From: a virus
DNA length: 27,532 nt
Direction: 5' to 3' (one strand)
Virus record (IMG/VR): IMGVR_UViG_3300035703_000366
Coordinates: 1-27,532 of that record
Of this stretch, positions 2,048 to 8,885 are shown piece after piece. Numbering within the stretch: position 1 is the first letter of the stretch; each line of letters opens with the position of its first letter. The notes beneath the pieces were generated by a model. It worked only from the letters and a program-made list of their open reading frames with translations, ran no database searches and was not told the DNA's origin. The position numbers and the translations under genes were made by a program.

Positions 2048-4627
2048 ATGTTTAGTTTCAAAACTTTTTTAAAAGAAACAGATTTAAAGTTTGGATATGT
2101 TGATCTTTTATTATCTGAAGAGCTAACTCAAGAACAAAAAAATACAGTAGATAATTGGGGAGACGGTTCTGCTGCAAGAGCTCTTTCTAATCATGTGTTC
2201 CCTAAAGGTCAGGACAGAATAGAAATTCCATTAAAAATGGAAGAAACGCCTGTAGTTCCTCATCCGGGCGTCCAAAAACATTTAGAAGATAATGGATATT
2301 CTATCAATGATTATAAAGGCGGATTTGCTACAGACAAATACGGTCGTTCGGTAAGCATTGGTAAAATATTAAACAAAACTAAAGCTCCTGCTGATATTAC
2401 AAACGCATTTATGAATGATCCTCAGAGAGCTGCTTCTTCTGTAGCGCAGCCTAAAATTATCATTTCTAGACATCCTCATGATGTAGCAGGTATGTCTACT
2501 GATCGTGGTTGGCGTTCTTGTATGGAAATGGGGGGACCAAATGGCGGAGGTGGTATCAATCAACATTATCTTCGACATGATATTGCCAACGGAACGCATG
2601 TAGCTTATTTGGTTCGACCCGAAGATAATGATATTAAAAAACCTATGGCTAGAATTGCATTAAAGCCATTTCATTCTGATGACGAAATTCAAGATTCAAA
2701 TGATCCATATGCTCATCCAATTTTTCAATCTACACAAAATAAACATACAATTTTAAGACCAGAATCTAATGTTTATGGTATTGGTAAAGGTGGAGATTTC
2801 GATAATGCTGCTTCGGGTGTTGATTCAGGAATAGTTAGTTCTTTTAAAAACACTATTAGAAATTGGACTAATCAAAATTTTCCTATGAAGGAAAATACCA
2901 CATACATAAAAAACCAAGATGTTTATAATGATGACGGTAAATCTACTGTTATGCCTTTTGAAAAAGCTATAAACAGTTCAGACCCTAGACAGGTTGGTAG
3001 TGCTTTTGATGATCATCCTGAAAAAATTACACCGGAACACCTAAGTAAGGTGTTAAACTCTGATGACACCAGTGCTTGGTCTTACTATCCTAAAATATCA
3101 GCTATACAGCATAAATTATCAACGCCAGAACAAGTTTTAAAGGCTTCTTACAGTAAAAGCGAAGATCTTAAACACGCAGCATTGCAAAATCCAAAATTGC
3201 CGCAAAGCAGAGTACAAGATGTGCTTATGAATAAACAAGAGGATGACTATACTAGATACAATGTTTTACAAAATCAAAACATTCCTGCCGAAACATTACA
3301 CCACGTAATAATGGACAGAAATGATGATATCAGATCAGATGCTTTAGCACATAATAACGTTTCGATAAACACGTTGAATGAAATTGTGAGAAGCCCTCAT
3401 TACAGAGATAGTATTTTAAAGAAAAAAGCGATTCAACATAAAAACTTCACTTCTCCGCATATTGATGCTGTTTTAGAAAATCCTACCATAGATTCTCAAC
3501 TAAAACAGACAATGATAAAAAGTAATCCAAATATTACAAAAGATCATTTGAGTAAAATTGTAAACGGCGAAAATTCCAGTCAGGGTATGATTTCTGCTGC
3601 TGTTTCTCATGCAAAAACTAGCCCTAAAACTATATCAGATTACTTAAGTAACGATACAATACACCCAAACGATAAATTGGATGTTTTACAAAAAAGTCCA
3701 AAAATTAATTCAGGCCATATAGATACAGTTTTGAATTCGTCTACAAATAGACCTGAGTGGTATAGTGCAGAAAGCGAGTTGAAAGAATTAGCAGCAAGAC
3801 ACACTAAAGCCACACCAGATGCTTTGGATAAGTTAATATTAAATTCACAAGATGATAACCTCAAACTTTCTGCTTTGAGTAATAAAAATGCAAAATCTGA
3901 AACATTGGATAAAGTGGCAAACGATCCTGAAGAACAACTGTATATCAGAAAACACGCTTTAAGAAATCAAAATATATCAGATAATACACTAACAAATATT
4001 GTTAAAAATGGTAACGAACCAGAATTGATGGAAACAGTGTTCCGTCATCCTAATGCAACACAAAAACATATTGATATGGGTGCAAATCATCCTGATCCTA
4101 AAGTTCGTTATAAAGCTTTAGCTTCTGATAGACATGATTTAATAACAAAACAACATGTTATAAACGCATTGGGCGATTCTAGTTATGATGTTTCTTATTT
4201 TGCTAGACAAATGGCAGAATGGAAATTAGACGCCCATGATCAAATTTATGCAATGTCTCATCCTAATCCAGAAGTTCGTCAAGCTACAGTTATGCTTGAT
4301 AAGTTAACAAAAGAAGCTCATTCTATGGCGATTAAAGACGAACATCCTATGGTTAGAGCAGTTTCGGTTTTATCTCGCCACACAACTCCTGCGCACATCG
4401 AAGCTTTACATCAAGATCCAGATCACACTGTTAGAGCTTTGTCTACTATCAGTAACCATATACAACCAGAGCATCTAACTAATATGGCAAACGACCCAAG
4501 TCATGTTGTTAGAATGGCCGTTGCTGGACACAAAAACACACCAGAAGATATTAGAATGAATATGGCTCAAAATGACCCTGAAGAAAAAGTTAGAGATGAG
4601 GCTTCTAGAAAGTTGACTTCCGCCTAA
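2048..4627 (+). CDS. 859-aa repeat protein (LRV/HEAT-like), possible internal head protein
   Basis: The gene is preceded by an exact late promoter and a good AGGGGA ribosome-binding site. The first residues, MFSFKTFLKE, resemble the capsid-targeting peptides of T4 internal proteins, and L-K-E fits the gp21 protease cleavage rule ((L/I)-X-E). Residues about 130-270 form a distinct domain with SRHPHDVAGMSTDRGWRSCM (140-159) and a following strand THVAYLVRP. From about 300 to 859 the protein is built of degenerate units of about 24 residues. They follow a pattern like HPNxxxxxIxxxxxxxDPxVRxxAL, most regular after residue 670, as in leucine-rich-variant or HEAT-like solenoids. Such repeats usually bind proteins. 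Packaging into the head and injection into the host are inferences from the N-terminus. An enzymatic role for the 130-270 domain cannot be judged. Confidence 0.85.
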   Translation: MFSFKTFLKETDLKFGYVDLLLSEELTQEQKNTVDNWGDGSAARALSNHVFPKGQDRIEIPLKMEETPVVPHPGVQKHLEDNGYSINDYKGGFATDKYGRSVSIGKILNKTKAPADITNAFMNDPQRAASSVAQPKIIISRHPHDVAGMSTDRGWRSCMEMGGPNGGGGINQHYLRHDIANGTHVAYLVRPEDNDIKKPMARIALKPFHSDDEIQDSNDPYAHPIFQSTQNKHTILRPESNVYGIGKGGDFDNAASGVDSGIVSSFKNTIRNWTNQNFPMKENTTYIKNQDVYNDDGKSTVMPFEKAINSSDPRQVGSAFDDHPEKITPEHLSKVLNSDDTSAWSYYPKISAIQHKLSTPEQVLKASYSKSEDLKHAALQNPKLPQSRVQDVLMNKQEDDYTRYNVLQNQNIPAETLHHVIMDRNDDIRSDALAHNNVSINTLNEIVRSPHYRDSILKKKAIQHKNFTSPHIDAVLENPTIDSQLKQTMIKSNPNITKDHLSKIVNGENSSQGMISAAVSHAKTSPKTISDYLSNDTIHPNDKLDVLQKSPKINSGHIDTVLNSSTNRPEWYSAESELKELAARHTKATPDALDKLILNSQDDNLKLSALSNKNAKSETLDKVANDPEEQLYIRKHALRNQNISDNTLTNIVKNGNEPELMETVFRHPNATQKHIDMGANHPDPKVRYKALASDRHDLITKQHVINALGDSSYDVSYFARQMAEWKLDAHDQIYAMSHPNPEVRQATVMLDKLTKEAHSMAIKDEHPMVRAVSVLSRHTTPAHIEALHQDPDHTVRALSTISNHIQPEHLTNMANDPSHVVRMAVAGHKNTPEDIRMNMAQNDPEEKVRDEASRKLTSA

Positions 4628-4641
4628 ATATATAGTATAAT
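4613..4641 (+). promoter_or_regulatory. Sigma70-type promoter TTGACT-N17-TATAAT
   Basis: TTGACT (4613-4618) and a perfect TATAAT (4636-4641) are separated by exactly 17 nt, overlapping the 3' end of the repeat-protein gene. Transcription would start near 4648, just before the AAAGGA ribosome-binding site of the exported-protein gene, and could run into the 50-residue ORF and the tmRNA. Confidence 0.8.
4624..4630 (+). promoter_or_regulatory. Possible late promoter CTAAATA inside the sigma70 spacer
   Basis: CTAAATA differs from the TATAAATA core in its first bases. It overlaps the stop codon of the repeat-protein gene and lies within the spacer of the sigma70 promoter. It is the same variant found before the HNH gene and gp32. 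It is plausible but weaker than the exact match at 2011. Confidence 0.4.
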
Positions 4642-4663: not shown

Positions 4664-4966
4664 TTGCTCAATAAAATTGTTGCTATAACAGTTTCTCTTC
4701 TAATTGTTTCGGCTTTGTTTGTTTCTTCAGCAAAGGCTGATAACTCCGAAGAAGTTGCTATTGGCATTCTTGGTGGAGTTGTAGGCGGACTTATCCTTGG
4801 TGAGGTATTAGAAAAACCTCGTCACTCTCACCCTGTTCGTGTATACGAATATGAAGAACCTTACATGGTTCGCGAGTGTGTAACCAAATACAGACGTTAT
4901 TACGACTCGATGGGAAATCTAGTACGTCGTCCAGTAAAGAAGTGTTATTGGGTTGAACGTTACTAA
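4664..4966 (+). CDS. Small exported glycine-zipper protein, 100 aa
   Basis: The gene starts at TTG, chosen because AAAGGA lies 7 nt upstream and because it gives a complete signal peptide. That peptide has Lys4, a hydrophobic core at about 5-21, and an AKA signal-peptidase I site with cleavage expected after residue 25. The mature part carries a Gly-rich zipper, GILGGVVGGLILGEVL (about 34-49), then a Tyr/Arg-rich tail with two Cys (CVTKYRRYY and KKCYWVERY) that could form a disulfide. It has its own sigma70-type promoter, so it is probably early. Periplasmic or inner-membrane location is inferred. Roles such as superinfection exclusion or envelope modification are possible but not shown. The stop overlaps the next ATG (TAATG). 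Confidence 0.85.
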   Translation: MLNKIVAITVSLLIVSALFVSSAKADNSEEVAIGILGGVVGGLILGEVLEKPRHSHPVRVYEYEEPYMVRECVTKYRRYYDSMGNLVRRPVKKCYWVERY

Positions 4967-5118
4967 TGAAGTTGACCAAATTAGAAGAGTTTATCATAGC
5001 TGATACCGGAGTAAAGGTCACGATTCTTGTTGACATTGCTACAATGGGTAAAGCATATGCTGAAGCTCATCTGAAATGGCCGAAAATATTATCGTTGAAG
5101 GAAAACGAAAAACACTGA
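4966..5118 (+). CDS. Small ORF, 50 aa, overlapping the tmRNA acceptor piece
   Basis: The ATG at 4966-4968 shares one base with the upstream stop (TAATG), which argues for coupled translation. The product, MKLTKLEEFIIADTGVKVTI followed by about 30 more residues to LKENEKH, looks like a small folded alpha/beta protein. I recognise no family. The TGA at 5116-5118 falls between the proposed tmRNA P2 strand and the T stem, so the end of the gene and the acceptor piece use the same DNA. This is unusual. Either the gene ends in a processed RNA, or translation and tmRNA maturation compete on the same transcript. Confidence 0.65.
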   Translation: MKLTKLEEFIIADTGVKVTILVDIATMGKAYAEAHLKWPKILSLKENEKH

Positions 5119-5150
5119 GGACCGGGGGGCAGTACCCCGCTGGTCCACCA
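5105..5150 (+). ncRNA. ssrA: tmRNA acceptor piece of a circularly permuted two-piece ssrA (5' end approximate)
   Basis: The segment ends in CCA (5148-5150). It contains a T stem CGGGG (5123-5127) and CCCCG (5135-5139) closing the 7-nt loop GGCAGTA. I recall this as the unusual T loop of alphaproteobacterial tmRNAs. The 3' acceptor strand CTGGTCC (5140-5146) pairs fully with GGGCCAG at 5665-5671, more than 500 nt downstream. This pairing includes the G3-U70 wobble and an A73 discriminator, the classic alanyl-tRNA synthetase identity elements. GGAC just before the T stem matches the same place in E. coli tmRNA. ACACT (5112-5116) can pair with AGTGT (5688-5692) as part of helix P2. The mature 5' end cannot be fixed from sequence. 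Confidence 0.9.
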
Positions 5151-5165
5151 TAAAGAAATGTTAAG

Positions 5166-5201
5166 CCTCCGTCGATCCTAAATAATAGGTATCGACGGAG
5201 G
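5166..5201 (+). promoter_or_regulatory. RBS-sequestering hairpin of the HNH gene
   Basis: CCTCCGTCGAT (5166-5176) and ATCGACGGAGG (5191-5201) are a perfect 11-bp inverted repeat. CCTA/TAGG can extend it with one bulge, leaving loop AATAA. The 3' arm contains the complete GGAGG Shine-Dalgarno sequence (5197-5201) used by the TTG start at 5208. Any RNA that includes the 5' arm should hide this site. T4 genes such as e, soc, 49 and the intron endonuclease I-TevI are known to use the same device. Confidence 0.85.
5178..5184 (+). promoter_or_regulatory. Late promoter CTAAATA within the hairpin loop
   Basis: The late -10-like element lies between the two hairpin arms. A late start site 6-7 nt downstream falls at about 5190-5191, exactly at the first base of the 3' arm. 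Late RNA would therefore lack the 5' arm and leave GGAGG free for translation of the HNH gene. Confidence 0.65.
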
Positions 5202-5207
5202 AAAATA

Positions 5208-5663
5208 TTGAAACATAAACATCATGTCATTCCTAAACATATGGGTGGGAGCGACGAACCTGAAAATATAGTAGAACTTTCTATTGAAGAACACGCAGAA
5301 GAACATAGGAAACTATACGAACTGCATGGTCATTGGCAAGATTTAGTGGCTTGGAAAGGCTTGTTAGGTCTGCTTACTTCAGATGAATGCACCTTCATAG
5401 CTATTACAAAAGGAGCTAGAAAGGGTGCTGCGATAGTTAACGCTAGAAGAGCTATACCAGGCAAGGATCCAAAACTTCCTTACCACAAATGGTTGAGTGG
5501 TTATTCCCAAGACGTTGATGGTCGAAAAGTTCGAACTAAGAGATTTTGGTTTAACGATGGCGTTTCAGAAGGGCAATTTTCTTTAGAGGATTTCCCTGAA
5601 GGATGGAAAAGAGGAAGGTTAAAAAGTTCCACTTCCAAATCCTTCAAAAATGTTTCTTTATGA
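5208..5663 (+). CDS. HNH homing endonuclease inside the tmRNA intervening segment
   Basis: The gene starts at TTG with GGAGG 6 nt upstream. The 151-residue protein begins directly with the HNH nuclease core: HHVIPKHMGG at 5-14, EPENIVELSIEEH at 17-29, and H33. The His pair, Asn20 and downstream His residues are as in phage HNH endonucleases. The C-terminus has WFNDG...PEGWKRGR (114-137), the NUMOD-like DNA-binding motif common in phage homing enzymes. The stop (5661-5663) is separated by a single base from the first nucleotide of the tmRNA coding piece, and the gene begins 57 nt after the acceptor CCA. It therefore occupies the spacer normally removed from permuted pre-tmRNA, where it need not harm the mature RNA. 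The target is probably the empty spacer in related phages or host ssrA; this is inferred. Confidence 0.9.
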   Translation: MKHKHHVIPKHMGGSDEPENIVELSIEEHAEEHRKLYELHGHWQDLVAWKGLLGLLTSDECTFIAITKGARKGAAIVNARRAIPGKDPKLPYHKWLSGYSQDVDGRKVRTKRFWFNDGVSEGQFSLEDFPEGWKRGRLKSSTSKSFKNVSL

Positions 5664-5664
5664 T

Positions 5665-5830
5665 GGGCCAGAAATTAGGATCGACTGAGTGTAGAATAGT
5701 TGACTGGAGATAATCGTAGGCGACTACGTTAAGCGCAAAACTCTAAATGCAAACGATAACTTTGCACCTCGTTTGGCTCTAGCAGCCTAACATGAGTTCG
5801 GTGGGTACTTGGAAACAGAAACCCACCACC
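5665..5830 (+). ncRNA. ssrA: tmRNA coding piece with proteolysis tag ANDNFAPRLALAA (3' end approximate)
   Basis: GGGCCAG (5665-5671) is the 5' acceptor strand and pairs with 5140-5146. AGGATCGACTGAG (5677-5689) holds the tmRNA-conserved TCGAC of the D-like region. CGTAG-GCGA-CTACG (5715-5728) is a GNRA-capped hairpin in the pseudoknot-1 area. The tag reads from GCA at 5749 to TAA at 5788-5790: A-N-D-N-F-A-P-R-L-A-L-A-A. The ANDN start is alphaproteobacterial in style, and the LAA end is the ClpXP degradation signal. GGTGGGT (5800-5806) with ACCCACC (5821-5827) closes a helix after the tag stop. The gene is permuted because acceptor DNA precedes coding DNA. The product should rescue stalled ribosomes and tag their peptides, possibly replacing or supplementing host tmRNA. 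Confidence 0.92.
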
Positions 5831-5838
5831 AATTTCGC

Positions 5839-5867
5839 TTGACATTAAATCGGTGTCAGGGTACAAT
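5839..5867 (+). promoter_or_regulatory. Sigma70-type promoter TTGACA-N17-TACAAT for the tRNA region
   Basis: A perfect -35 TTGACA (5839-5844), a 17-nt spacer and TACAAT (5862-5867) precede the first tRNA by 9 nt. The RNA would therefore start only a few bases before the mature 5' end. It is strong evidence that the tRNA genes are read by host RNA polymerase independently of the tmRNA unit. Confidence 0.85.
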
Positions 5868-5876
5868 GAATAATAA

Positions 5877-5959
5877 GGCCACGTAACCGAGGACGGCTTC
5901 TACCCGTTTACACGTAACTGGAGTTGCAAATGGGGGTTCGAATCCCTCCGTGGTCGCCA
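5877..5959 (+). tRNA. tRNA-like gene, anticodon UCU (Arg), no normal D arm
   Basis: The acceptor GGCCACG/CGTGGTC pairs over 7 bp (one G-U), with G73 and encoded CCA. The T arm GGGGG-TTCGAAT-CCCTC is canonical. The anticodon arm is best read as GACGG-CTTCTAC-CCGTT (5892-5908): 7-nt loop, U33, anticodon UCU, A37. That leaves only 8 nt (5884-5891) where a D arm should be. Between anticodon and T arms lie 23 nt with a hairpin GTAAC-TGGA-GTTGC (5914-5927), like a long variable arm. AGA is the dominant Arg codon in the structural genes of this window and rare in most GC-rich hosts, so an Arg(UCU) supply makes sense. The missing D arm means it may be degenerate or very unusual. Confidence 0.6.
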
Positions 5960-5981
5960 TTTATAATGCAGGAGAGTAATA

Positions 5982-6366: not shown

Positions 6367-6582
6367 TTGAAAACTAAAATCGTTAAAGATATTCCTATCG
6401 GTGTTTTGTTAATTGTAATAGCGATGTTTGCCGCTTATGCGGTAACGGTTTTATCCAACTTTCCTCCTACATTAAATTTAATAGCCATATTTGGGTTGTG
6501 TTATGTTACAAACAAGCTTGTATCAGTTGGTATGGACCTTATTCAAGGCATAGAAATTAAAGATAAAAATGATAGCTCATAA
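6367..6582 (+). CDS. Small membrane protein, two predicted TM helices, 71 aa
   Basis: The gene starts at TTG, 5 nt after a full GGAGG (6357-6361) that immediately follows the tRNA. Two hydrophobic segments (about 10-29 and 36-56) are linked by a short polar turn NFPPT, and the tail is charged (KDKNDSS). A short N-terminal KTKIVKD suggests a cytoplasmic N-terminus. It overlaps the start of gp33 by 14 nt. I recognise no family. Small two-helix proteins in this region of T4-like genomes are often host-membrane or lysis-timing factors, but nothing here decides the role. Confidence 0.75.
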   Translation: MKTKIVKDIPIGVLLIVIAMFAAYAVTVLSNFPPTLNLIAIFGLCYVTNKLVSVGMDLIQGIEIKDKNDSS

Positions 6583-6787
6583 TAATTTTGTAGAAGAAAT
6601 AGAAGTTTTATGTAAAGAAAAAAACATAGAATATATCGACGCAGTTGTTATGTGGTGCGAACGTAATAACTTAGAAGTAGAAGTTGCAGCATATTGGATT
6701 AAAAAAGACTCTTCTATGAAAATGAAAATTAAAGCCGAAGCAGAAAATCTAAATATCCTTAAGAGAGGAGCCAAACTTCCTATCTAA
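6569..6787 (+). CDS. 33: Late transcription coactivator, gp33-like
   Basis: The 72-residue product is short and almost entirely helical: NFVEEIEVLCKEKNIEYIDA, then VVMWCERNNLEVEVAAYWIK, then a Lys/Glu helix ending NILKR. This pattern lines up with my recollection of the C-terminal half of T4 gp33 (ExMVEEFGMSYLEATTAFLE...EAIDENLLR). That protein bridges the RNA polymerase beta-flap and the sliding clamp during late transcription. T4 gp33 is 112 residues, so this is a shortened version lacking the N-terminal part. Its position supports the call: T4 also has 33, 59 and 32 next to each other. It also fits the TAAATA-type late promoters in this window. The main doubt is that so short a helical protein gives limited evidence. 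Confidence 0.7.
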   Translation: MIAHNNFVEEIEVLCKEKNIEYIDAVVMWCERNNLEVEVAAYWIKKDSSMKMKIKAEAENLNILKRGAKLPI

Positions 6788-8855: not shown

Positions 8856-8885
8856 AAAGGGGAGATTAAAATCTCCCCTTTTTTT
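8856..8885 (+). terminator. Rho-independent terminator after gp32
   Basis: AAAGGGGAGAT (8856-8866) pairs with ATCTCCCCTTT (8871-8881) around a TAAA loop and runs into a T tract to 8885. It lies between the convergent gp32 and the minus-strand operon. The 3' T tract partly overlaps the stop codon of the minus-strand gene, so no room is left between them. Confidence 0.93.

Follow-up and report, generated by a model that had tools for sequence, protein, structure and literature searches.

A probable late-only expression switch for an HNH homing-endonuclease gene nested in the two-piece tmRNA gene of a T4-like phage

Introduction

In phage T4, the homing-endonuclease gene I-TevI lies in the td intron, a segment that is removed from its host RNA. 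As with I-TevII and I-TevIII, a hairpin hides its ribosome-binding site on transcripts arriving from upstream, and a late promoter is so placed that late RNA lacks the 5' arm of the hairpin (PMC2988022). The I-TevI open reading frame (ORF) runs on into structured host RNA, the intron core, and the hairpin protects splicing: its deletion impaired splicing of td (PMC2988022). This logic, a late promoter combined with a hairpin over the Shine-Dalgarno (SD) sequence, has been demonstrated in the case of I-TevI, and I-TevII, I-TevIII, segB and mobE are reported to share it (PMC2988022). Here we describe a locus that resembles I-TevI in its layout, but in which the enzyme is of the HNH type rather than the GIY-YIG type and the host RNA is transfer-messenger RNA (tmRNA). 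It was found in a 27,532-base IMG/VR virus record of an uncultured phage (IMGVR_UViG_3300035703_000366; 'the window' below means this whole stretch), where an HNH gene occupies the intervening sequence (IVS) of a permuted tmRNA gene and is preceded by a hairpin that contains a late-promoter octamer (Table 1). We consider it highly probable that the arrangement is a switch confining expression of this putative homing endonuclease to the late stage of infection.

Several other systems share some of these properties. The free-standing HNH gene mobE of phage Aeh1, and segB of T4, are homing-endonuclease genes with an SD-sequestering hairpin and a late promoter (PMC2988022), which in Aeh1 has a C at -12 (PMC2988020), as in the window; they lie, however, among protein genes, whereas the HNH gene of the window lies inside an RNA gene. 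The T4 genes e, soc and 49, to which an earlier note on this DNA had likened the locus along with I-TevI, are ordinary phage genes and not mobile elements, but the comparison is sound in that early read-through RNA has their translation start sequestered (PMC3014915); late promoters in the stretch that encodes the 5' strand are documented for gene e. Two-piece tmRNAs are found in marine T4-like phages (Melnitz, pelagiphages), where the permuted ssrA gene also lies beside a late co-activator gene, but no endonuclease gene was described in the IVS (PMC9004378). Conversely, homing-endonuclease genes do occur inside bacterial tmRNA genes, in group I introns carrying LAGLIDADG genes (PMC11915505), although there the gene sits in a T-loop intron of the intron-type tmRNA gene rather than in a permuted-form IVS, and the nuclease family is a different one.

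Among cultured phages, tmRNA similarity was confined to the Melnitz phages, in which the annotated ssrA region has no endonuclease gene, and no tmRNA is annotated near the closest HNH genes of the isolates inspected (S-SKS1, S-B05 and S-SRM01). The open-access papers that were searched yielded no case of an endonuclease gene inside a permuted-tmRNA IVS. The switch mechanism is thus a known one, but its use inside a tmRNA gene seems to be new.

A hairpin and a late octamer at the ribosome-binding site

The leader of the HNH gene contains, as the earlier note had it, a perfect 11-bp inverted repeat with GGAGG in its 3' arm: the arms (CCTCCGTCGAT and ATCGACGGAGG) are 100% complementary and 14 nt apart. 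The window holds six inverted repeats of the same class, the perfect ones being this hairpin (5166-5201) and a 12-bp hairpin at 8856-8881. RNA from 5150 to 5230 has a folding energy of -26.5 kcal/mol, compared with -9.4 +/- 2.6 for shuffled sequences (z -6.6; none of 200 as good). The octamer CCTAAATA between the arms includes the word CTAAATA (5178-5184), which had been correctly located there but is not wholly free in a loop: the CCTA of the octamer pairs with TAGG (5186-5189), lengthening the stem over a one-base bulge, so that half of the octamer extends the stem. Late transcription had likewise been expected to start inside the hairpin, and this is what the spacing of T4 late octamers (-13 to -6) predicts, but at 5190, one base earlier than the first base of the 3' arm that had been suggested.

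Folding models agree with the further expectation that RNA from upstream folds and late RNA cannot. In an 885-nt model of the tmRNA precursor, each of the 11 arm pairs has a probability of at least 0.955, and the probability of the SD sequence being unpaired is 0.00-0.007. RNAs starting at 5189-5193 are unable to form the hairpin, and the mean unpaired probability of their SD sequence is 0.41-0.71 in local context, rising to 0.77 in a shorter late-RNA context. When 57 late-promoter leaders were compared, that of the window showed the largest loss of folding energy.

Table 1. Features of the tmRNA-HNH locus and its surroundings, in window coordinates
Feature	Position	Strand	Basis or remark
Sigma70-like promoter (TTGACT-17-TATAAT, 11/12), which may drive early synthesis of the tmRNA precursor	4613-4641	+	consensus match only
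Late octamer CCTAAATA within the sigma70-like promoter	4623-4630	+	
tmRNA acceptor piece region, ending CCA at 5150	5032-5150	+	Rfam; 7/7 pairing with 5665-5671
T-arm of acceptor piece	5123-5139	+	
Acceptor 3' strand CTGGTCC	5140-5146	+	
ACCA end of acceptor piece	5147-5150	+	
IVS, 514 nt, contains HNH gene	5151-5664	+	
IVS-closing stem, 5' strand	5151-5162	+	pairs with 5649-5660
SD-masking hairpin, 5' arm CCTCCGTCGAT	5166-5176	+	fold; native arm beats 500 shuffles
Late-promoter octamer CCTAAATA between the arms	5177-5184	+	same position in relatives
Predicted late transcription start	5190	+	T4 spacing, octamer at -13 to -6 (PMC2988020)
SD-masking hairpin, 3' arm ATCGACGGAGG	5191-5201	+	fold, pair probabilities
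SD sequence GGAGG of HNH gene, in 3' arm	5197-5201	+	6 nt before TTG start at 5208
HNH homing-endonuclease ORF, 151 aa, TTG start	5208-5663	+	PHROG 655 homing endonuclease, 1.7e-11
IVS-closing stem, 3' strand, within last codons of HNH ORF	5649-5660	+	
tmRNA coding piece, 3' end approximate	5665-5840	+	Rfam, acceptor-stem pairing
Coding-piece 5' strand GGGCCAG	5665-5671	+	
tmRNA tag ANDNFAPRLALAA and stop	5749-5790	+	
gp33-like late-transcription co-activator	6569-6787	+	PHROG 254, 2.4e-14

Conservation and co-variation of the hairpin among relatives

Relatives were gathered by scanning with the HNH protein and with alignments of it, and loci were tested for an acceptor stem that pairs 7/7 around the gene. 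This gave 19 unique viral loci in which a member of the HNH family lies in a tmRNA IVS (the window and 18 others), and 70 unique loci elsewhere; bacterial genomes contained nine relatives of the family. Rfam models of permuted tmRNA match 16 of the related IVS loci at E <= 0.01. A broad DNA pattern, CCACCA plus an HNH start, was also tried as a locus finder and given up, noise prevailing among the matches listed.

Octamer, SD sequence and hairpin occur together in 17 of the 19 IVS loci, with the octamer at -26 to -37 and with the 5' arm and the SD sequence on either side of the predicted start. Wherever it is present, the hairpin includes or abuts the SD sequence and surrounds a promoter, and this geometry is common to loci whose HNH proteins are down to 38% identical. 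The device is far rarer in copies of the family outside an IVS (3/70 by a strict criterion, 6/70 by a looser one; Fisher p about 1e-12, computed with 4/70, a value not to be taken literally because the loci are related).

The arms co-vary. When 5' and 3' arms were swapped among 16 loci, the permuted combinations summed to -198.6 kcal/mol (sd 17.2), compared with -316.5 for the native ones, and none of 200,000 permutations was as low; shuffling the 5' part reached native stability in at most 2% of trials in any locus, and in none of 500 in eight loci. An alignment of nine sequences gave 12 consensus pairs, four of them with double compensatory changes. RNAalifold found no consensus structure in a MAFFT alignment of all 16 leaders, because the arms shift in register. 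Taken together, the conservation in 17 of 19 loci and the co-varying arms make chance very unlikely. There is accordingly next to no likelihood that this is an ordinary intergenic hairpin or terminator containing a promoter-like word by accident: CTAAATA is indeed no commoner in the window than expected for such a word (6 found, 9.1 expected), as such an accident would allow, but the combination recurs in 17 loci with matched arms. The terminator version of this explanation was dropped, as the hairpin has no T-run and attracts no terminator call.

The same changes in the arms bear on the idea that the palindrome is mainly a DNA operator through which the HNH protein represses its own late promoter, the RNA fold being secondary. 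I-TevI, and probably I-TevII and I-TevIII, do have operators over the promoter (PMC2988022), and autoregulation of that kind would be compatible with a hairpin; but the arm sequence is not conserved across loci and changes with compensation, which points to pairing and not to a fixed binding sequence. We regard an operator as the main function as very improbable.

In a quick tree of the family, IVS residents fall into two supported clades (98 and 99), and when the number of rows was reduced they made up one side of a branch (86); HNH genes have perhaps entered the tmRNA IVS twice, although a single origin is also compatible with the trees. Two loci (L065 and L024) have an HNH-family gene directly upstream of a complete permuted tmRNA, outside its IVS.

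Many copies outside an IVS have another arrangement. In 24 of the 70 unique loci (24 of the 45 with a leader octamer), the octamer lies exactly at -13 to -6 before the ATG (L035, L040, L045, L053, L055, L057, L061-L064, L066, L068-L070, L075, L081, L089 and others), so that late transcription is predicted to begin at the A of the ATG itself, giving apparently leaderless late mRNAs. A GTCGA..TCGAC hairpin often stands just upstream in these copies. Leaderless late mRNA is possibly a second route to late-only translation.

Occupied and empty alleles of one tmRNA site

A locus about 90% identical in DNA to the window around the tmRNA (L101) has the same tmRNA with an IVS of 71 nt in place of the 514-nt IVS, and from this IVS the HNH gene, the hairpin and the late promoter are all absent. 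Eight further permuted-tmRNA loci that have no HNH gene also have no late promoter in the IVS, and in all nine the IVS is a different one, whose ends pair in a stem of their own. The presence of the device thus follows that of the endonuclease gene. These loci also speak to the suggestion that the hairpin is an element for tmRNA maturation, a signal for RNase III or the like that frees the 3' end of the acceptor piece, with its overlap with SD sequence and promoter incidental. Only 15 nt separate the hairpin from the acceptor-piece CCA, and it is present in the precursor model, as such an element might be, but the nine gene-less loci have differently built, end-paired IVSs with no late promoter, the two IVS residents lacking the hairpin (L016 and L025) retain the IVS-closing stem, and the hairpin, where it occurs, is always at an SD sequence and promoter. 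A role chiefly in maturation thus seems to us very improbable, and its RNase-signal form was dropped on finding that the hairpin is missing from empty alleles.

The window and L101 represent occupied and empty alleles of a single site, and the difference between them is concentrated in the acceptor-stem halves and the IVS. The halves are GGGGGCG/CGCCTCC in L101 and GGGCCAG/CTGGTCC in the window, a set of compensated changes in a tmRNA that is otherwise nearly identical. This suggests that the acceptor-stem halves (5140-5146 and 5665-5671) travelled with the inserted gene, and the block of difference would be the expected trace of short-flank co-conversion with an endonuclease gene.

The split tmRNA and the ORF that abuts it

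The tmRNA context assumed in the earlier note holds good: an acceptor piece ends in CCA at 5150 and a coding piece begins at 5665. Rfam places a permuted alpha_tmRNA (RF01849) at 5032-5830 with 54 bits (gathering cut-off 50), RF04321 also matches above its cut-off (47.4 bits), and the order of acceptor piece, IVS and coding piece, with a tag frame present, is that of the permuted two-piece form, although ARAGORN found no tmRNA in the window. The acceptor stem pairs 7/7 across the inserted gene, including G3-U70, a pair typical of alanine-accepting tmRNA. In the precursor model the pair probabilities are 0.87-0.88 for this stem and 0.83-1.0 for the IVS-closing stem, which co-varies over 18 loci (none of 100,000 permutations as good).

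The assignment of the nested protein rests on its PHROG match and on H, H, N, H and H positions invariant across 18 aligned sequences; a Pfam search with it gave no match at 0.001. The TTG start of the window ORF falls at a residue where relatives have ATG. At its other end the stop codon finishes 1 nt before the tmRNA coding piece. The same spacing (TGAT|GGG) is seen in 10 of 18 loci, while in one the stop comes 12 bases before the coding piece and the ORFs of the other seven extend into it by 7-40 nt. Since the ORF abuts or overlaps the coding piece in this way, early translation would collide with tmRNA maturation; a ribosome terminating on the HNH ORF would cover the acceptor 5' strand.

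The octamer as a probable late promoter

The placement of octamers was examined over 388 kb, made up of the window and three related contigs, by counting the copies that precede a same-strand ORF start by 8-75 nt. Of 50 occurrences of TATAAATA, 32 (64%) are so placed, as are 31 of 68 (46%) for NCTAAATA, compared with 0-20% for seven control words; within the window the figures are 5/6 for CTAAATA and 2/2 for TATAAATA. In these contigs the octamer appears to behave as a late promoter. The window phage is T4-like, with homologues of gp32, the helicase loader and the gp33-type late co-activator, and a gp33 homologue was also seen in 11 of 15 related contigs searched.

The window has a second putative late promoter inside a hairpin, at 1999-2050, where TATAAATA (2011-2018) lies between CCCTTAAAA and TTTTTAGGGG. 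This hairpin precedes an 859-aa HEAT-repeat ORF at 2048, and its G-rich 3' arm may be the ribosome-binding site of that ORF.

How the switch may work

Early in infection, RNA polymerase entering from upstream would produce the tmRNA precursor, in which the HNH leader would fold, burying GGAGG, and the IVS-closing and acceptor stems would form. Maturation enzymes, presumably RNase P and 3'-end nucleases, would release the two tmRNA pieces, and the IVS would be discarded. Once a late-transcription system of the gp55/gp33/clamp type took over, transcription would start inside the hairpin near 5190, giving an RNA with no 5' arm and an open ribosome-binding site, from which the HNH protein would be made. 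The outcome would be that the nuclease is kept late. As the earlier note proposed, the hairpin may also prevent ribosomes from reaching the tmRNA coding piece during maturation of the precursor; this is plausible by analogy with I-TevI, and it gains indirect support from the closeness or overlap of ORF and coding piece and from the much higher frequency of the device in IVS copies (17/19) than in other copies of the family.

Some observations weigh against this interpretation. CCTAAATA deviates from the T4 late consensus at -13 and -12 (late promoters of Aeromonas phage Aeh1 have C at -12 and a/g at -13: PMC2988020). In the 661-nt late RNA of the window the SD sequence is only partly open (0.07-0.62 per base), and the same is true of the predicted late RNAs of L037 (0.13) and L036 (0.40), while in the long RNAs of L002, L021, L038 and L041 it is only partly masked (0.38-0.50 unpaired). 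In such models the direction of change on going to late RNA in the window is clear, but its size depends on context. Finally, the device can be dispensed with, since L016 and L025 have neither hairpin nor late promoter. In the leader of L016 (1491-1500), the AAGGA before the ATG is part of the IVS-closing stem, and its masking may be due to that stem instead.

On balance we favour a late-only switch, and we think it likely, though less surely so, that homing endonucleases have a lasting niche in the IVS of phage two-piece tmRNAs: an 'intron' that needs no splicing, since maturation of the host RNA excises it, and in which the late-promoter hairpin is kept so that the nuclease goes untranslated on RNA destined to become tmRNA. 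The I-TevI type of compromise between mobile gene and host RNA would then extend from self-splicing introns to split tmRNA, which loses its IVS with no splicing at all. The question of whether ribosomes on the precursor block tmRNA maturation becomes testable, and the nineteen loci offer natural variants for testing how late-promoter hairpins function. The locus also shows that a standard finder (ARAGORN) misses endonuclease-bearing tmRNAs.

Neighbouring features

Two features near the tmRNA gene deserve mention. Upstream of it, and of an ORF at 4664, an early-type promoter and a late-type octamer overlap (4613-4641). On its 3' side, at 5877-5960, is a tRNA-like gene (Rfam tRNA, 31.6 bits, with no ARAGORN call), identical in L101, with an apparent TCT anticodon, a very short D region and a long variable arm; a sigma70-like promoter (11/12) lies upstream of it at 5839-5867.
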